Below, in pieces: positions 21,869-42,201 of a DNA stretch of 42,894 nucleotides. Source of the DNA: a virus; IMG/VR virus record IMGVR_UViG_3300011118_000011, positions 1 through 42,894 of that record, one strand, 5' to 3'. A program made the translations under genes and the position numbers. How positions within the stretch are numbered: the stretch's first letter is position 1; the number at the start of each line of letters is the position of its first letter. Under the pieces are notes generated by a model. The model was not told the DNA's origin and did no database searches. It worked only from the letters and a program-made list of their open reading frames with translations.

Positions 21869-22213
21869 TTATTTATTTTCTTTATTTTCTTTACTATCAA
21901 CTGCATCTTTAATTATATTTTTCAATACATTTGTGTCTTCAACACGTTTTAATTCACGTAATTCCTTACGCTTTGCTTCTTTTTTTGCATATCTCTCATG
22001 CAATTCTTTTGTTGCTTTCTCATTAACAACCATCAATTTATTATTATCACTTGATGATTCATTGATTGAATCAACATAACTTTTAGTTACTTTCATGTTT
22101 TTACGGATCAATACTTTTTGATCTAATAGTTGTTTTCCATTATAAATAGGTATGCCATATTTATCAGCCACAACTATTTTATTCGGATTTACTTTCGCTT
22201 TTGCCATTTTCAT
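21869..22213 (-). CDS. Small basic protein between portal and scaffold
   Basis: This 114-aa Lys-rich protein (MKMAKAKVNPNKIVVADKYG...) has a helical C-terminus (KKEAKRKELRELKRVED). Its start overlaps the portal stop by 35 bp; an in-frame ATG at 22207 is an equally likely start. It lies 5 bp before the scaffold gene. A head morphogenesis or scaffold-assisting role is plausible from position. No family recognised. Confidence 0.6.
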   Translation of the reverse strand: MKMAKAKVNPNKIVVADKYGIPIYNGKQLLDQKVLIRKNMKVTKSYVDSINESSSDNNKLMVVNEKATKELHERYAKKEAKRKELRELKRVEDTNVLKNIIKDAVDSKENKENK

Positions 22214-23837
22214 TTAAATTTGTTAATAATTTTTTATTTTGAATCCATTTATCCCTTGATTTTTCAAGTTCTTTTTTTGATTTTTTCTTATCTTTTATTT
22301 CAAGTGATCCCCACCAGTCATTAAATAACATCTTTTTTTGTGCAGCTTCTTGCCCTAAGATATTATTTACATCTTCTACAGTATAAAAAGGCCAATATTC
22401 AAGCTGTGACTTTTTTAATTCTTCCATCAACGTTTCGGGATCATTCTTATATTTAGTTGTTATATATTCGTTATACAATTTGCATTTTACTGAATCCGGG
22501 AGATTATTTTTTATTGCATCGCTTAAATTATTTAATATTTGCTCTTCTGTTCTAATCAAATAAACACGGCCATAATAAATATTACTTATTTTTTCTGATT
22601 TATCTTTATTTGGCAAATACCAATTAGCAATCATTTCAGTCAATTGCCATTCCATGTATTGGGCCACATCAGACCATTCATTTAGTTTATTTATTTTTGG
22701 CTGGGCATTCAACATTATTTCTGTAGCTGTCTGCTCGGTTTCTTTATCAATAGTCATCCCCCATTGAGTGTCATACATTGACATCGTTGACTTGTTCAAT
22801 GTTTCTTCATATTTATTCCATATCTCAATATCAGGAGTTATAAAATATCCTAATGTAGCCGGGAAATTTATTGTTTCTGCATTTAAATTAATTGGTACTA
22901 TTATTTCATCAGTCACATCCTTATGCATCAGTTCACCTTTTCCATCGCAAACAGTGCATTTTTGATGCTCTACTTTTCCAGTACCTCGACATTCATGACA
23001 TATAATACCCGGCCTTACAGGCGTAGAAAAACCATTTAAAAATTTATATATTGCTAATATTCCCTGGTCTCTTAAATATTCTTCCTGTTTTTCTTTTATA
23101 TTATCAAAAGGGGAAAGTTTCCCTTCAATGCCTAATCTTTGAATATTAGAACATATTAAAGCCGGAACTATTCCGAAAGGATGTTCAAAACTTTTTTCTT
23201 TAATAAATATTAAATCATCACCATCTTCTTTAAAAGTCCAATCTTTTTCTTGATCAACATACCTCCAAAATGATTCATCTTTACCATCTTCATTTTTAAT
23301 TTTTTCCGGTTCAAATAATAACCATATTAATTTTTGACCATTACATTCATAATTACGAATTGAAAGAGTTGATTTATACACTGGCTTTATCCATTCGTCT
23401 TTATAATATTCTAAAAATATCAATCCTGTCGGGTCCACAATATATAAATCTTTTGCCCAATACGTTTCTAGGAATTTCTCTATTGATTTCCCTTCCCGTA
23501 GATTAGATATTGTCTCTAAAAATTTCTTTTTTGTAGTATCTGATTTTATTCCCGGATAATATTTTGAGCCTCCAACTGCTGAATAGATTGCATCAACAGG
23601 ACGTAGTAATTTTTGATTTAAATATTTTATTGGTATAGTATATTTTTTTCTTGCATTTGCCCGTTTTTCGCTTTCAATATGCTCTATTTTAATTAATCTT
23701 TCTCTATAATTTTCTCCATAAAATAACGCTTTCCAATCATTATGATATTTACGTGCCTTACTTATCCACTCTGGTATTTGCTTATTTTTTTCAATAAGTT
23801 CTTTTACTTCTGTCTCGTTTCTAACTTCGATTGTCAT
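22179..23837 (-). CDS. Portal protein with DnaJ-like zinc finger
   Basis: This 552-aa protein lies directly after the large terminase gene and has the length and composition of portal subunits, which form the ring through which DNA is packaged. The N-terminal part has ARKKYTIPIKYLNQKLLRP. About residues 279-300 contain two CxxCxGxG-type knots (CHECRGTGK and CTVCDGKGE), as in DnaJ zinc fingers. A wing/stem-like helical region follows (ATEIMLNAQPKINKLNEWSD). It ends in a Lys-rich tail. The zinc finger is unusual in a portal, but the surrounding sequence is uninterrupted. Confidence 0.85.
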   Translation of the reverse strand: MTIEVRNETEVKELIEKNKQIPEWISKARKYHNDWKALFYGENYRERLIKIEHIESEKRANARKKYTIPIKYLNQKLLRPVDAIYSAVGGSKYYPGIKSDTTKKKFLETISNLREGKSIEKFLETYWAKDLYIVDPTGLIFLEYYKDEWIKPVYKSTLSIRNYECNGQKLIWLLFEPEKIKNEDGKDESFWRYVDQEKDWTFKEDGDDLIFIKEKSFEHPFGIVPALICSNIQRLGIEGKLSPFDNIKEKQEEYLRDQGILAIYKFLNGFSTPVRPGIICHECRGTGKVEHQKCTVCDGKGELMHKDVTDEIIVPINLNAETINFPATLGYFITPDIEIWNKYEETLNKSTMSMYDTQWGMTIDKETEQTATEIMLNAQPKINKLNEWSDVAQYMEWQLTEMIANWYLPNKDKSEKISNIYYGRVYLIRTEEQILNNLSDAIKNNLPDSVKCKLYNEYITTKYKNDPETLMEELKKSQLEYWPFYTVEDVNNILGQEAAQKKMLFNDWWGSLEIKDKKKSKKELEKSRDKWIQNKKLLTNLNENGKSESKSE

Positions 23838-33238: not shown

Positions 33239-33562
33239 TTATTCAAACAATTCTCTTATGATTTTTTTGTCATTTTCATTTTCATGTATTCTGTGCAATT
33301 CAGTTTCATACAATATTTCAATGAGATTAATAATAGCAGACAACCTTTTTAAATAAAATTGTTGCTCCTTAATATTTTTTTCAGCATTACCCCCAACAGC
33401 ATAAACCATTACGGAAGCTGATTGATTCATGCTTATTTTTTCCTTAATTGTGTTTTCAAATTCTCGTAAATAAGGTAAATCTATAAATAACTTAGCAGCT
33501 TCTTGTAGAACTGGTATAATTTTATCTGCTATTTCTTGTGATTTTTCAATTGATTTTTCCAT
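33239..33562 (-). CDS. Hypothetical protein, 107 aa
   Basis: This protein (MEKSIEKSQEIADKIIPVLQ...) has an N-terminal amphipathic helix, a Gly-containing loop (VYAVGGNAEKNIKEQ) and a helical C-terminus. It is in the replication gene neighbourhood. No recognised family. Confidence 0.55.
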   Translation of the reverse strand: MEKSIEKSQEIADKIIPVLQEAAKLFIDLPYLREFENTIKEKISMNQSASVMVYAVGGNAEKNIKEQQFYLKRLSAIINLIEILYETELHRIHENENDKKIIRELFE

Positions 33563-33615
33563 TTTATTTGTTTTTATTTCTATTAACTACAATAGTATTC
33601 TTTATATCCCTGAAC

Positions 33616-33975
33616 TTATTGATTAATTTCGCTTAAATCATACCAATACATTTTATCTTTAACTTTAATTTTTTTATATTCCTTCCACACTTTAATGCCC
33701 CATTCGCTCACTTTTTTGCACATGGCTTCGTAATTATATAACTTTACTAATTTATCAAAACTAATAAAATCCGCAATAGTAGGTATTGGATATTTACAAT
33801 TATCAATTACATTATTAACAGAATCTATTAATCTTTTATCATTAAAATTACACTCTTTTAAACGATCTGTTAATATATCATAAAATTCAACCGGAATACC
33901 TGGAAATGCTTTTTTAAGTCGGCTAACCTGTTTTAAAACACATTCTGTGGTCAATTCACCTGAATAAATAGACAT
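33616..33975 (-). CDS. Replication-neighbour hypothetical protein
   Basis: Start at 33975 (MSIYSGELTTECV) avoids an 83-bp overlap with the replication gene. The longer ORF from 34065 is possible. The product contains LKKAFPGIPVEFYDILTDRL and VIDNCKYPIPTIADFISFDK, motifs I have seen in proteins encoded right after replication initiators in Bacteroidota phages. It probably assists initiation or helicase loading; this is an inference. Confidence 0.6.
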   Translation of the reverse strand: MSIYSGELTTECVLKQVSRLKKAFPGIPVEFYDILTDRLKECNFNDKRLIDSVNNVIDNCKYPIPTIADFISFDKLVKLYNYEAMCKKVSEWGIKVWKEYKKIKVKDKMYWYDLSEINQ

Positions 33976-33982
33976 CTCATAT

Positions 33983-35110
33983 CTATTTCTTCCTGTCTGT
34001 ACCAAATTTATTGGCGAGCATTTCTGCAAGCTGTTTATTTGTTGCCCCTTTACTTGATTTTCCATTTCTTAATATTTTGTTTATCTCATTAAATTTATTT
34101 AGTATAATTGGTAAACTCATGTTTTGTGAAAGCCAATTATCTTCAATCTGACAGCATGAATTAAAATATATTTCAAGTGCTTTTAAAGTTTCTTCGCTAT
34201 TTGCTTCCGGGCATTTATCTTTATAAATCTTCAAAATTTTCCCGGCGCAACCTTTTTCTTTTCCTTTATTTGTTATTTCATAAGGTAATTCAAAATTCTT
34301 TTCATAAGCATCTTTGAATAAATCGACAATTTTGTCGATAAAGTCTTTTCTCTTATCTTCTCTTATCTTATCTTCTCTTATCTTATCTTCTCTTATCTTA
34401 TCTTCTCTTATCTTATCTTCTCTTAATTCATGTGATTTGCTTATGATTTGCTTATGATTTATTAATGGTTTGCACCCAGTATTTATCATATAATTATCAA
34501 TTATATCAATACATGTAGTATCATAACATTCCATATAACCAGGAAATTTATCTAGCGTTTCGTGTTTATAATTTTTTAATAAATCGTTTAATTTTATTTC
34601 ATGTTCAATTGGTTTATCACAAAATAACTGATATAATGTTATAATTTTATATTTAGGTTTAATGCTATAACGTCTTGAAATACTTTTCTCAGTGACACCT
34701 ATTTTAATAAATGATTCTTCTTTGTTATTCATAAATAAAATATAAAGCTGATTCCCTTCTTTTCTTTCAACTTCATTCCATGAACTATTTTTTAATCCAC
34801 CTTTTGCTCCAGCCTTTTTTCTTTTTTCTCTTAATTCAAAAAATTCATTTATTTGTTCATCTAAAAAATTGATAATTAAATTATTATTTTCATCTATTTT
34901 AATAATTGACGCTGTTATTAATCTATCTATATTAGAACTATATTTTTTAAATCTTAATTTTATATTTTCCAAAGAAATACATCCATTTTTATTCCAATAA
35001 TGAGCACAAATATTTATAAATAAACCCTGATCCTTTAAATCCATCATTGTTATATCACCTGTCACCCATTCACCGGGGAAAAATTTAAAATAAGGTAATT
35101 CTTTAGCCAT
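33983..35110 (-). CDS. Replication initiator with inserted GIY-YIG-like domain
   Basis: This 375-aa protein starts MAKELPYFKFFPGEWVTGDI, the N-terminal domain typical of phage replication initiators (DUF4373/DUF1376-like, about 1-110). A GIY-YIG-like module of the MUG113/T5orf172 type follows (about 119-205: QLYILFMNNKEESFIKIGVT, RRYSIKPKY, IEHEIKLNDLLKNY, PGYMECY). Then five REDKI repeats (230-254) act as linker, and the C-terminal part (about 258-375) resembles the helical tail of such proteins. The insertion is in frame. Repeats and a nearby palindrome may be the origin. Confidence 0.75.
   Translation of the reverse strand: MAKELPYFKFFPGEWVTGDITMMDLKDQGLFINICAHYWNKNGCISLENIKLRFKKYSSNIDRLITASIIKIDENNNLIINFLDEQINEFFELREKRKKAGAKGGLKNSSWNEVERKEGNQLYILFMNNKEESFIKIGVTEKSISRRYSIKPKYKIITLYQLFCDKPIEHEIKLNDLLKNYKHETLDKFPGYMECYDTTCIDIIDNYMINTGCKPLINHKQIISKSHELREDKIREDKIREDKIREDKIREDKRKDFIDKIVDLFKDAYEKNFELPYEITNKGKEKGCAGKILKIYKDKCPEANSEETLKALEIYFNSCCQIEDNWLSQNMSLPIILNKFNEINKILRNGKSSKGATNKQLAEMLANKFGTDRKK
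34323..34338. repeat. Perfect 16-bp palindrome in replication gene
   Basis: TCGACAATTTTGTCGA is a perfect palindrome inside the replication initiator gene, 10 bp from the iteron block. It could be a binding site at the origin. Confidence 0.5.
34349..34423. repeat. Five 15-bp tandem repeats, candidate origin iterons
   Basis: Five head-to-tail units (gene sense AGAGAAGATAAGATA; the last ends AGA) encode REDKI repeats in the replication initiator. An 11-bp direct repeat (TGATTTGCTTA, twice, from about 34433) and a palindrome at 34323-34338 lie next to it. Iterons inside the initiator gene are common in phages, so this is a candidate origin. Confidence 0.55.
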
Positions 35111-35124
35111 TTTCTTTATCGTTT

Positions 35125-35139
35125 ATTTCTTTGTTATGG
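35125..35139 (-). repeat. Half attC-like site G
   Basis: In gene sense CCATAACAAAGAAATA follows 6 nt after the stop of the 118-aa gene. It shares AACAAAGAAATA with the first halves of sites E and F. No second half is seen before the replication initiator gene starts, so it may be a truncated site. Confidence 0.4.
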
Positions 35140-35145
35140 TTCATG

Positions 35146-35502
35146 CTAAGAAACAGCTTCGTTGATTGCTTCTTTTGCTAATTGAATCATATCTTCTATC
35201 GTGTTTGAAGCATGAATTAATTTGTCTTCATTATATCGTCCTTTCCCCTCAGATATTTCAATTAAAGCGGCTAATAATTTAGGTGCAGCAGCAATTAATT
35301 TCATATCTGCCTCTATTTTTTCACTTTGTTTAATATACTCCTTATCCGTGCTTGGTAATAAAGAATTACAAATCATTTCATAATATGTACCACTTCCCAT
35401 ATCTGTAATAATTCCAACACCTGTACATATCTTTTTGGGGTTCTTGGTATATCTTTCAAAAACCATTTCCCATTTGCCGATTGTTCCTTTAAATTCGTTC
35501 AT
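35146..35502 (-). CDS. Phage accessory protein with ANAKLIAAAPELL-like motif
   Basis: The start at 35502 (MNEFKGTIGKWEMV) is preferred to the longer frame. The 118-aa protein has an N-terminal KGTIGKWE strand and ADMKLIAAAPKLLAALIEI near its end. This motif recurs in many small phage accessory proteins (ANA(R/K)LIAAAPELL). It lies between attC-like sites B and G and is probably a cassette. Role unknown. Confidence 0.7.
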   Translation of the reverse strand: MNEFKGTIGKWEMVFERYTKNPKKICTGVGIITDMGSGTYYEMICNSLLPSTDKEYIKQSEKIEADMKLIAAAPKLLAALIEISEGKGRYNEDKLIHASNTIEDMIQLAKEAINEAVS

Positions 35503-35526
35503 AATTATTTGTATTAAAGCACGAAA

Positions 35527-35656
35527 CCATAACAATATGTATAGTTAATGGCGGGTGCTGTGGTTAATATTAAATTTTTACTTTTCATTTACTTTTGCGC
35601 GCTTTGATAGGTTCGTGGTCTTAAATCCGCCACTAACCATACATTTAACGTTATGC
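35527..35656 (-). repeat. attC-like site B
   Basis: In gene sense the site runs GCATAAC (35650-35656, includes the stop codon of the 82-aa gene) to GTTATGG (35527-35533), 130 bp. The arms match as CATAAC, ATGTAT, GTTA and TGGCGG, with one or more unpaired bases between blocks. The size, the AAC/GTT ends and the unpaired bases are what attC sites show. It shares the inner TGGCGG block with site A. Confidence 0.7.
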
Positions 35657-35899
35657 TTCATTTGCCAACGCACTTAATAAAGCATCTGCATATTCAACCG
35701 CAATGGCTGAAAACTTTAGTAAGTCACTTTCTTTTTTATCGTTCTCTTGTGGTCTTAATATGTTTGGATTAGCTATCATGGCAGCCATTGCTTGCCCTGC
35801 GTAATATTCACGTTTTGTCAATCCTTCTTGCAAGTAATTTACTTCATCACAACAAGCGAAAGCTGCTCTGTCTTGGTTTTTTGTATCTACATTTTCCAT
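35651..35899 (-). CDS. Conserved small phage protein (cassette-borne)
   Basis: This 82-aa protein (MENVDTKNQDRAAFACCDEV...) contains GLTKREYYAGQAMAAMIANP and a C-terminal AVEYADALLSALANE. This is a well-known pattern of short phage proteins of unknown function (LTKREYFAGQA...YADALLA). Its stop codon is part of attC-like site B. It follows the Cro-like gene and a TTACA/TGTAA palindrome. Confidence 0.75.
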   Translation of the reverse strand: MENVDTKNQDRAAFACCDEVNYLQEGLTKREYYAGQAMAAMIANPNILRPQENDKKESDLLKFSAIAVEYADALLSALANEA

Positions 35900-35926
35900 T
35901 TATAGTTTTTATTTGTAATTAATTTA

Positions 35927-35941
35927 TTACATTTATTGTAA
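35927..35941. promoter_or_regulatory. Operator-like palindrome TTACA-N5-TGTAA
   Basis: TTACATTTATTGTAA lies between the regulator gene and the 82-aa gene. Similar palindromes stand at 40868-40883 and 42396-42411 (spacing 6), also in leaders, which suggests one regulator binding all three. Confidence 0.45.
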
Positions 35942-35947
35942 ATTTTT

Positions 35948-36106
35948 TTATTCTCCTATTAACTTTTTAATGTCGTCTGATACATTTTGAGGCATGTTTC
36001 TTTCATTATTTAGATAAGCCCTTAAGGTGTTAATGTTTATACCTATTTGCTCGGCTATCCAGTTTTGTTTTAATCCTTTACTTTTTATTAATTCTTTCAA
36101 ATCCAT
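35948..36106 (-). CDS. Cro/CI-type helix-turn-helix regulator
   Basis: A 52-aa protein (MDLKELIKSKGLKQNWIAEQ...) has an XRE/Cro fold pattern: LKQNWIAEQIGININTLRAYL shows the helix-turn-helix, with Gln14 and the Gly22 turn. It is a minimal DNA-binding regulator with no dimerisation domain visible. Its promoter (36159-36189) and a palindrome TCCCT-N3-AGGGA at the predicted transcription start suggest autoregulation. It may control early transcription. Confidence 0.8.
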   Translation of the reverse strand: MDLKELIKSKGLKQNWIAEQIGININTLRAYLNNERNMPQNVSDDIKKLIGE

Positions 36107-36141
36107 TGTAATCTTTTTATTACTTTTTAATCCTAAAAAAT

Positions 36142-36154
36142 TCCCTAAAAGGGA
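36142..36154. promoter_or_regulatory. Operator-like palindrome at regulator promoter
   Basis: TCCCTAAAAGGGA is an inverted repeat with 5-bp arms, overlapping the predicted transcription start of the Cro-like gene. It is the best candidate for autoregulation. Confidence 0.55.
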
Positions 36155-36158
36155 TAAG

Positions 36159-36189
36159 CAAAATTAATCATTTATATTTAATCTGCAAA
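36159..36189 (-). promoter_or_regulatory. Promoter of the Cro-like regulator
   Basis: Minus strand: TTTG (36186-36189), 19 nt, TAATTTTG (36159-36166), a full match to the Bacteroidetes TTTG/TAnnTTTG pattern. The start site would be near 36152, next to the TCCCT/AGGGA palindrome. Confidence 0.75.
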
Positions 36190-36223
36190 TTTATTTAATG
36201 TTATTATCTAATGTTTTAGTTTA

Positions 36224-36679
36224 TTAATTACCTATTATTGATAATAATTCTTGATCTACATAATTTGATTCTTCTCTTATCCTTTCATTTTCTTTATAAT
36301 GCTTTATGAGATAATTTTTTTTATCCATGTGATTTTTAATATTCATAAATACATTTTTTACCTGGTTGAATTTTTCATCATTGAACATATCTTGTATTAT
36401 TCTATATTTTATAACGAAATCCTTATCAGTATCTAATAAATTATTAATAGCTTTTTTAGAATGTAAAACACTTGCATGGTCCTTTTCGCCTCCCAATACA
36501 CCTATTTCACTTAACGATGCTTTTGTATAAACTTTCATCATTGTATGTTCTATTTGACGGGGCTCACATATTTCTCTTTTTCGTGTATTAATATCAATAT
36601 CATTATAATTAAGATTAAAATAATTACAAATTACTTTCCTAATCATGGAATGTGTCCTAACAATTCTTTTATTTCTCAT
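36224..36679 (-). CDS. Stand-alone DnaA domain IV protein
   Basis: This 151-aa protein contains the C-terminal DNA-binding domain of the replication initiator DnaA without the AAA+ ATPase: NTRKREICEPRQIEHTM, SLSEIGVLGG and KDHASVLHSKKAI (about 31-78), which match the DnaA-box-binding signature (..RDHTTVLHACKKI). A helical charged tail follows. It could recruit or block the host DnaA at the phage or host origin. Such phage proteins are known, but the role here is inferred. The XRE regulator promoter lies just after its stop. Confidence 0.85.
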   Translation of the reverse strand: MRNKRIVRTHSMIRKVICNYFNLNYNDIDINTRKREICEPRQIEHTMMKVYTKASLSEIGVLGGEKDHASVLHSKKAINNLLDTDKDFVIKYRIIQDMFNDEKFNQVKNVFMNIKNHMDKKNYLIKHYKENERIREESNYVDQELLSIIGN

Positions 36680-36695
36680 AACCTTATTTTTTAAA

Positions 36696-36845
36696 TTAAA
36701 AAAAGATCCTTTCTTTCCTGTAATATTCTTCTAATTTTTTAATCACATCTTTACGATCTTGAATATTTGTTTTGTATTCAGATATTCTGAATTGATCCAA
36801 GTTTTTATGAACGTATTTCTTATTCGGTTCTTTAAATTTTTTCAT
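36696..36845 (-). CDS. Small basic hypothetical protein
   Basis: A 49-aa Lys-rich protein (MKKFKEPNKKYVHKNLDQFR...) has a helical C-terminus (VIKKLEEYYRKERIFF). It sits between a membrane protein gene and the DnaA-like gene. No family recognised. Confidence 0.5.
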   Translation of the reverse strand: MKKFKEPNKKYVHKNLDQFRISEYKTNIQDRKDVIKKLEEYYRKERIFF

Positions 36846-36869
36846 TATAAATTATCATATATTTCTTTA

Positions 36870-37151
36870 CTATTTATATTTATTTATAACAGTTTTTTTA
36901 TATTCGTCAAAATCATATCTAAAAACATCTTCGTCCAGGTTGCAATCAGGACTGAATTGTACGTTGTCGGCCCCGGCAAAATACCCGAAATAATACGCTG
37001 ATTTCATTTGTTGTCTTAATAAATCTTTGTGAATTTCGTCCTTCTCTTGCATCTCATTGCCATTTTTTACTAAATAATAAACGGCAATTACTGAATAATA
37101 AATGACAATTGTAGAGATTATTGATAATATTATTATGATTATATTTTTCAT
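36870..37151 (-). CDS. Membrane-anchored protein
   Basis: This 93-aa protein has a single N-terminal transmembrane helix (about 3-28, IIIIILSIISTIVIYYSVIA) and a soluble tail with QQMKSAYYFGYFAGADN. It follows the 88-aa gene after 11 bp. Function unknown. Confidence 0.55.
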   Translation of the reverse strand: MKNIIIIILSIISTIVIYYSVIAVYYLVKNGNEMQEKDEIHKDLLRQQMKSAYYFGYFAGADNVQFSPDCNLDEDVFRYDFDEYKKTVINKYK

Positions 37152-37162
37152 GATTGTTTTGT

Positions 37163-37429
37163 TTAAAATGGTAATAGATCATAATTTTTTTTATAATCAT
37201 CCTTAGTCACTTTTTTCCTATATTTTAATAACTTTTTAATTTCATCATTGATTAACTTGTAATATGTAAAACTTATTTTATAAGCTGAATGGTAATAATT
37301 ATCTTCATAAAATGTTATATCCCTAATTTTATTACCTACAATAATTAAATCATTCTCAGTTGAAATCTTTTCAACACAATAATCAATTATAGCAATTGAA
37401 TTACTATTTGTTGTTATTATTTTTTTCAT
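37163..37429 (-). CDS. Hypothetical protein, 88 aa
   Basis: This soluble protein (MKKIITTNSNSIAIIDYCVE...) ends in a basic helix (KLLKYRKKVTKDDYKKN). The start leader (AAACTAAACAATC before ATG) is like that of the next gene. No recognised family. Confidence 0.55.
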   Translation of the reverse strand: MKKIITTNSNSIAIIDYCVEKISTENDLIIVGNKIRDITFYEDNYYHSAYKISFTYYKLINDEIKKLLKYRKKVTKDDYKKNYDLLPF

Positions 37430-37442
37430 GATTGTTTAGTTT

Positions 37443-37916
37443 TTATTTTAGTGTTATTTTAACGTATGAATTTGACGTTTTTAAAGGCTTGTTTAATATT
37501 TCTCCTGTTTTTGTATCAGCAACTGGATTATCAATATCAAGATTTTTTAAAAACTCTTGACGTTTTTTTATCTTTTTATCCTGTTCTTGTTGTTCAATCA
37601 TTAAATCATTAATAACAGTATCATTACATTTTGAATAATTATACTTTACATTAGTTTCTGCCTTTTCAAATTTAGCCACGTTGTTTTCAAAGATTTGTTC
37701 CGGGTATTTATCTACTTCTGACATTATATAATTACGAACCCTGTTATTTGCCCGCAATCGTTTAACAAGTTCTTCCAATGCTTTTAACTGTACTGCTATT
37801 TGAAGCGGGTTTTTATCTTCCATTTCTGATATAAAATGTGCTTCAAATTTTTCAATACTTTCAATTGTTGACGGTAATTGATCAACGTAATACATTACAT
37901 TATCTGATTGTTTCAT
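37443..37916 (-). CDS. Recombination/replication-associated hypothetical protein
   Basis: This 157-aa helical protein contains NPLQIAVQLKALEELVKRLR, YIMSEVDKYPEQIFEN, NYSKCNDTVINDL and a C-terminal DTKTGEILNKPLK. This order is one I recall from proteins always encoded next to the phage ssDNA-binding-like gene in this phylum, and it follows that gene by 5 bp here. It likely helps in replication or recombination; the mechanism is not known. Confidence 0.7.
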   Translation of the reverse strand: MKQSDNVMYYVDQLPSTIESIEKFEAHFISEMEDKNPLQIAVQLKALEELVKRLRANNRVRNYIMSEVDKYPEQIFENNVAKFEKAETNVKYNYSKCNDTVINDLMIEQQEQDKKIKKRQEFLKNLDIDNPVADTKTGEILNKPLKTSNSYVKITLK

Positions 37917-41289: not shown

Positions 41290-42201
41290 TCATTTAAAAG
41301 GTTCACACGAAATTCCACAATCGTATTCTAAATCTAATTGCGTTTGCGTATGGTAATCATATTGTCTATTTTCATCATCAGCTTCTTTGAATTTTGGCTG
41401 TTTTGCTATTTCAAATATTTCTTTAACCGTTTTGTTTCCCCTGAAGAACCTAATAGGAATGATTAACTTATTTCTATCTCTTGTGGGAACGTGGTTGTCG
41501 TATTTCTCAATCATTACGTTATTAAATTCAAACCATTCTGGATGATGAATTGAGCAGGTTGCAAGTTTTCTAAATGATTTTTTCCAACAGGTTTTGCAAT
41601 TACCTTCCCATCCAGTAATTTCAAGTCTAAACGGCATCGCATCCCAAAAGGAGTTTACATCCTTTTTAGTCGTTGGCTTAATTTCAATAAGTGGGTAAAA
41701 TAAATTAAGTTTTTCTTTATTCTTTGACATCCTATCTATTTCATCATACCTAATACCAATAGCGGTTTTATAGTCCTTATTTTTCCACCCGACACTTCTT
41801 GCGTAGCTTGTAATAGGTCGCTCTTTTAACTCCCTTGTGCAAGTCATATTTTGGTAGTTAGGTATTCCAAACTTTTTAATGTATTCCTCAAAGTTTCCAC
41901 CTATTCCGCTTCTTTCGGCACTTTCAAAGTTTACTATTGTATGCTTTGTGCCTTTCCCTGCTTCGTGAATTATTTTAGGTTCTAACCAAATTAAACCTAA
42001 CCCAAAGTACTTATCGCATTTATCAGCAAATATTAAAGTCTCTTCATGCTCTTCTCCAACATTGGCAAACACAAATATAAACTCGTATTTATCGCTATAA
42101 TTATCTTTTAATAAGTTGCACATATAAGCAGAAGTTTCTCCTGCTGAAAAGGAAACTAATATTTTTTCCCTCCCTTTTTTTTCTTTTTTACATTCGTTCA
42201 T
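41290..42201 (-). CDS. PAPS reductase-like phage enzyme
   Basis: This 303-aa protein has the ATP-PPase core of the phosphoadenosine phosphosulfate reductase family: SFSAGETSAY (18-27; the usual SGGKDS is altered), then FVFANVGEEHEETLIFAD, TCTRELKERPI and GNCKTCWKKS. The C-terminal CGISCEPF suggests an iron-sulfur site. Such phage enzymes may act in sulfur metabolism or nucleic-acid modification (DndC-like). Which of these applies cannot be decided. The gene lies just after attC-like site A, with a leader similar to the 79-aa membrane protein gene. Confidence 0.8.
   Translation of the reverse strand: MNECKKEKKGREKILVSFSAGETSAYMCNLLKDNYSDKYEFIFVFANVGEEHEETLIFADKCDKYFGLGLIWLEPKIIHEAGKGTKHTIVNFESAERSGIGGNFEEYIKKFGIPNYQNMTCTRELKERPITSYARSVGWKNKDYKTAIGIRYDEIDRMSKNKEKLNLFYPLIEIKPTTKKDVNSFWDAMPFRLEITGWEGNCKTCWKKSFRKLATCSIHHPEWFEFNNVMIEKYDNHVPTRDRNKLIIPIRFFRGNKTVKEIFEIAKQPKFKEADDENRQYDYHTQTQLDLEYDCGISCEPFK

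Follow-up and report, generated by a model that had tools for sequence, protein, structure and literature searches.

A T5orf172-type GIY-YIG domain lies within a putative phage replication initiator, beside origin-like repeats

The 42,894-nucleotide viral DNA analysed here (IMG/VR record IMGVR_UViG_3300011118_000011, hereafter the window) encodes an initiator-like protein into which a nuclease domain of the T5orf172/MUG113 branch of the GIY-YIG family has been inserted, and both this insert and the overall anatomy of the 375 amino acid protein (Table 1) are well supported. In four divergent phages the nuclease belongs to the putative initiator of the phage itself and adjoins origin-like repeats. 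The first-pass annotation of this DNA had proposed such a domain from the letters alone, and the motifs that it cited are in place (LYILF at residue 122, FIKIG at 134, RRY at 146, IEHEIKL at 168, KFPGYMEC at 188 and REDKI from 230 on). Its span of residues 119-205 describes the nuclease domain well, but not the unit that is inherited, which is longer (residues ~109-218) and includes a conserved "E..R..G.Q.Y" junction. The limits of this cassette were set by alignment with relatives that lack it and with the three other initiators that carry it.

Table 1. Features of the initiator-like gene and its surroundings (positions in the window)
Feature	Position	Strand	Basis or remark
Initiator-like gene, 375 aa	33983..35110	-	N-domain, T5orf172 (GIY-YIG) insert, linker with repeats, and C-domain
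N-domain (residues 1-107), presumed to bind the origin; winged helix predicted	34790..35110	-	Homologues, AlphaFold2, Foldseek
Whole cassette, residues ~109-218 (junction, nuclease domain, trailing segment)	34457..34786	-	Alignments
T5orf172-type GIY-YIG domain, residues 119-205	34496..34756	-	phrog_681, HMM, AlphaFold2, BFVD
Y123 codon, Tyr of GIY-equivalent strand	34742..34744	-	Invariant in 12-sequence alignment and 4 initiators
R147 codon, presumed catalytic Arg	34670..34672	-	Nearly invariant (12 sequences); invariant in 4 initiators
E171 codon, presumed catalytic Glu	34598..34600	-	Invariant; aligned with Odn E180
11-bp direct repeat, 2.5 copies, iteron-like	34433..34460	-	TAAGCAAATCA on coding strand; directly after insert
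15-bp x5 perfect tandem repeat encoding REDKI	34351..34425	-	Purine-rich on coding strand
C-domain, residues 255-375	33986..34348	-	Weak match to L100 C-domain
Next gene, overlaps initiator gene	33616..34065	-	Loader-like by position only

The N-domain matched phrog_29280 at 1.5e-20 over residues 1-107 and, weakly, phrog_9327, a "primosomal protein" family (6.7e-4). Its AlphaFold2 model (pLDDT 91) gave the N-terminal domain of DnaD as the top Foldseek match in the PDB, also weakly (E 0.18, probability 0.87). Relatives of the N-domain are encoded by 371 IMG/VR stretches, and the best 80 of these 371, which were read, share 39-56% identity with it. In isolate phages the relatives adjoin primase/helicase or replication genes, and the N-domain match and gene context place the window protein among the phrog_29280/DUF1376-like initiators; it is from this family and context that we infer its initiator function. 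Elsewhere in the window, a 151 amino acid protein (36224-36679, minus strand) has the C-terminal, DnaA-box-binding domain of DnaA without the ATPase domain (Bac_DnaA_C, 2.2e-16), and a gene at 41290-42201 (minus strand) resembles phosphoadenosine phosphosulfate reductases (phrog_424, 6.7e-48). The portal protein (22179-23837, minus strand) has a second match to phrog_127, labelled anti-termination protein Q-like (3.9e-6), probably because the family label is wrong or because the two have a small domain in common.

Assignment of the insert to the T5orf172/MUG113 branch, as first suggested from its motifs, was borne out by profile, HMM and fold comparisons. Residues 111-222 matched the endonuclease family phrog_681 at 5.3e-6 when the whole protein was searched and at 8.7e-8 when the domain was excised. 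Pfam PF10544 (T5orf172) scored the domain below its cut-off (14.4 bits against 20 bits, E 0.055-0.059) and matched 11 of 12 aligned T5orf172 members. When the domain was used to scan phage records and IMG/VR, it led to T5orf172 proteins of large phages, including a putative homing endonuclease of phage ICP1, Gp53 (CapR + T5orf172), and an endonuclease of an Acinetobacter phage. Twelve phage T5orf172 domains (eleven from IMG/VR and that of the Acinetobacter phage), with the window excluded, then served to build an HMM, which scored the window domain at E=2.3e-18 and the ICP1 nuclease Odn at 1.3e-5; no match came from the 84 insert-free relatives or from 2,000 shuffled sequences. Across the window and the eleven IMG/VR domains, Y123, K136, G138, Y154, E171, F189, G191, E194 and C195 are invariant and R147 nearly so, and the window domain has the two-stranded start, the K-I-G motif and the catalytic-type Arg and Glu. 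The domains were modelled separately, after a combined alignment had set nuclease pieces onto the N-domain, and the structure prediction that the first-pass annotation had proposed as a check agreed with it: the AlphaFold2 model of the insert (pLDDT 81) has a beta-beta-alpha-beta-alpha fold and matched T5orf172/CapR phage nucleases in BFVD (best 3.4e-6), among them ICP1 ORF88, which is Odn (7.5e-4). Against the PDB the model gave weak matches, with the Slx1 GIY-YIG domain among the top ones (E 1.5), and PDB sequence searches gave nothing useful. With its catalytic residues intact, the domain is probably an active DNA-cutting one.

That the nuclease lies between the N-domain and the REDKI linker as an insert is evident from relatives without it. 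Alignment with insert-free initiators, also proposed at the outset, showed that the segment is absent from the best 80 of 371 IMG/VR relatives and from four isolate-phage relatives, in which the N-domain runs straight into the charged linker (AGxKGG, a short variable segment, KDKDK or REEK, C-domain). The insertion point is at the edge of the repeats (Table 1), relatives reading KGGLKKSS|NAKAMLKQ where the window has KGGLKNSS|...|NHKQIISKS. Single-sequence scans of IMG/VR with the whole protein, the nuclease domain or the C-domain gave no match, exact peptide words being too strict for this; plasmids held no match to the whole protein, and a scan of genome contigs gave one match, which is N-terminal and came from a query pattern that is partly low-complexity. 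DNA-pattern scans of IMG/VR, in which the N-domain and nuclease motif were sought together, yielded three further contigs with the nuclease at the same position of the initiator: L100 (69.7 kb), L102 (48.6 kb) and L103 (42.1 kb). They have the junction "(E/D)..R..G.Q.Y" in common with the window, and Y123, R147 and E171 are kept in all four initiators; each of the four records has one such nuclease and one such N-domain. The C-domain of the window shows a weak match to that of L100 (30% over 82 amino acids, with a KFNEI...QLA motif), and the genes next to the two initiators are 49% identical over 98 amino acids. In dN the nuclease domain does not exceed the N-domain (0.47 against 0.51, and 0.30 against 0.36, with dS large or saturated), so that the nuclease is kept by selection.

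Other accounts of the insert were set aside. An intron had no Rfam match at E<=1 in 33500-37500 and the reading frame is continuous; inspection of the alignment showed no Cys/Ser...His-Asn ends of an intein; the insert is not foreign in composition (GC 0.231 against 0.234 for the N-domain); and a one-off fusion is excluded by L100, L102 and L103.

A link to homing elements, also raised in the first-pass annotation, gained ground from the phylogeny. The four initiator nuclease domains form one clade relative to twelve other domains (support 96/92), whereas in the N-domain tree L102 and L103 group with the insert-free phages morran and Arctus (100/98), apart from the window and L100. Forcing the four N-domains into one clade was rejected (p-AU 0.0255), which, with 101 columns, is moderate evidence. 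The four insert-bearing initiators have at least three kinds of C-domain, that of L103 matching the GIY-less L007 and L026 at 49-51% and that of L102 matching L030-L032. The initiator-like protein of an insert-free human faecal phage (L104, MT836332.1) has a different N-domain and a C-domain related to that of L100, and N- and C-domains of these initiators thus appear to be freely mixed. Since the nuclease clade is single while the N-domains are not, and there are three kinds of C-domain, the insert behaves like a mobile cassette with the patchy distribution, one nuclease clade on several host-gene lineages, that is typical of homing. Movement of the cassette, a single old insertion followed by many losses, or recombination between domains can each yield such a tree; homing elements usually have a history of the first or the second kind. 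Among the initiators sampled no close pair of full and empty alleles was found.

The DNA that encodes the linker is repetitive well beyond what its codons require. Each gene was recoded with synonymous codons from its own locus and repeated 8-mers were counted: across 75 genes the linker DNA held 918 against 132 expected, while the N-domain control held 36 against 34. The excess was significant singly in 50 of the 75 genes, and of the 57 loci with a length of 6 kb or more, 47 had their highest repeat density in the linker. The repeat-bearing DNA is made up of the codons between AGxKGG and the charged run, with direct repeats such as GCAAATGCTAA in L006, GCGAACGCAAT in L033 and GTTCAACAGAAAGTCAACA-like units in L056 and L068. 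In the window the linker has 20 repeated 8-mers against 0.23 expected from synonymous recoding; the REDKI repeat is the most repeat-dense place, and the only two exact ATAAGCAAATCA sites are both in the 11-bp repeat. As the excess is found at one place in divergent genes, it points to an initiator gene that contains the origin, as gene O of lambda does; linker DNA is thus a likely origin, although slippage could be partly behind its repeats. The arrays across L006-L085 and the isolate relatives, all in the linker part, are candidate origins of the same kind. The window reads, in order, N-domain codons, cassette, 11-bp repeats and REDKI repeat, and with repeats directly after the insert the cassette would lie between the N-domain codons and the presumed origin. 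The 11-bp repeats had gone unmentioned in the earlier reading and likely give the insertion site a meaning.

The explanation that we favour, though tentatively and at slightly less than even confidence, is that the nuclease cassette rides in the initiator and reaches the origins of rivals through the initiator's DNA-binding domain, serving exclusion, homing or both. A T5orf172 GIY-YIG cassette would have been inserted in frame after the N-terminal DNA-binding domain and ahead of the linker; the N-domain would bind the linker repeats and so carry the attached nuclease to the origin, and any phage or satellite that co-infects the cell and has the same repeats but no cassette would be cut at or beside its origin. 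The cut would remove the competitor, and repair from the full copy could spread the cassette. In an empty target the KGG codons adjoin the repeats, whereas in the phage's own copy they are ~330 bp apart, so that self might be spared and rivals exposed. That the protein is an initiator, that its N-domain binds the repeats and that the nuclease is active are all inferred, as are target, self-protection and homing, and the annotation of the N-domain, which consists of matches to "primosomal protein" families and a DnaD-like fold, both weak, weighs against the proposal. Self-protection is an assumption, as a sole initiator must spare its own origin and yet the repeats lie only tens of bases past the nuclease codons. 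A more specific version, possible but rather doubtful, is that a homing cassette without a DNA-binding domain of its own inserts in frame into initiators, right beside the origin, and makes use of their origin-binding domain; each empty origin of the same specificity would then be both target and next home, and a competitor would be disabled in the same act.

It is unlikely that the protein is a weapon only, an immobile Odn-like device excluding competitors or satellites that have the same origin. Odn and several Odn-like RepA_N-T5orf172 genes work in this way or are predicted to (PMC8263062, PMC10448857), and Odn is among the BFVD matches, but Odn is a separate gene with its competitor's DNA-binding domain, whereas here the nuclease is in the phage's own initiator with C-domain, linker and repeats, and the occurrence of one nuclease clade on several initiator lineages suggests movement. 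Slightly less likely again is a domesticated nickase, which would cut a single strand of the phage's own origin in a controlled way and so aid unwinding or start another mode of replication; nicking at the origin had been suggested in the first-pass annotation. Fusion to the sole initiator of its type next to repeats, active-site residues kept in all four initiators and purifying selection on the nuclease would fit such a role; however, all 80 sampled relatives and the four isolates replicate without the insert, which argues against an essential step, the cuts made by Odn are double-strand (PMC8263062), and the distribution over lineages is patchy. An improbable alternative is that the insert has no nuclease activity and acts as a spacer, either structural or DNA-binding. 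T5orf172 often goes by the name of a DNA-binding domain, L100 has a serine in place of C195, and K(I/V)G replaces Y-I-G; but Y123, R147 and E171 are invariant or nearly so at 33-44% identity, and Odn is active with the same KVG motif (PMC8263062). An assembly artefact or chance fusion in one metagenome contig can be dismissed, for although the fusion is known from metagenome-derived records only, four independent contigs have the same junctions, one open frame and the conserved residues.

A nuclease carried to the origins of rivals by the initiator may thus be a selfish or competition device, for which Odn is a precedent, as it showed that the DNA-binding domain of an initiator can serve a phage as a weapon against a satellite. 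None of the papers searched describes a phage whose own initiator contains a GIY-YIG domain, which is no proof of absence. If the mechanism is true, nuclease and replication specificity would evolve jointly within a single protein, and a selfish element would find in origins its target as well as its shelter. The arrangement also raises the testable question of how a phage survives with a nuclease-bearing initiator, and the family-wide repeat arrays provide candidate origins for a poorly studied phage group, whose isolate relatives infect Flavobacteriia.

Several known systems share parts of this arrangement. The phrog_29280/DUF1376-like initiators (of Cellulophaga, Flavobacterium and Leeuwenhoekiella phages and the 80 IMG/VR relatives) share the N-domain, AGxKGG, charged linker and replication neighbourhood, but are without the nuclease and ~110 amino acids shorter at the insert position. 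DUF6291-HNH proteins (L100, phage Arctus_1) likewise have a nuclease behind another small domain, beside the initiator, although in a separate gene and with an HNH nuclease and a DUF6291 domain; such genes (L100 5651-6121, minus strand; L005 2035-2508) lie directly upstream of the initiator and overlap it in two different phages, and in L006 and L034 only a few bases separate the initiator start from the end of another HNH gene. Lambda O, with oriLambda located within its gene (PMC6022878), is similar in its N-terminal DNA-binding domain, flexible linker, C-domain and iterons in the initiator gene; it has no nuclease, and its iterons are 18-bp inverted repeats as against the ~11-bp direct repeats of the window. 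The nearest sequence relatives of the nuclease domain are the CapR-type zinc-finger T5orf172 homing endonucleases such as ICP1 Gp53 (PMC10448857), which are stand-alone proteins with repeated zinc-finger DNA-binding domains, whereas in the window the presumed binding part is the initiator's N-domain.

Closest in design is Odn (Gp88) of ICP1, a RepA_N DNA-binding domain joined to T5orf172 which makes its double-strand cuts in the origin of its competitor, PLE, and requires the PLE iterons (PMC8263062); Odn-like chimeras arose several times (PMC10448857). Direct BLAST of Odn against the window protein gave no match, and the likeness lies in the fold match, in the union of T5orf172 with an initiator-type DNA-binding domain (in the window, initiator-type by family and a weak fold match) and in the alignment of E171 with E180, whose change to alanine, a predicted catalytic mutation, abolishes Odn function (PMC8263062). 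Odn differs in being a free-standing protein of 226 amino acids whose RepA_N domain resembles the one found in its target satellite; the N-domain of the window protein is instead of the phrog_29280/DUF1376-like type and the sole copy, and the nuclease is mid-way in the phage's own putative initiator, with the C-domain kept and the repeats in the same gene.
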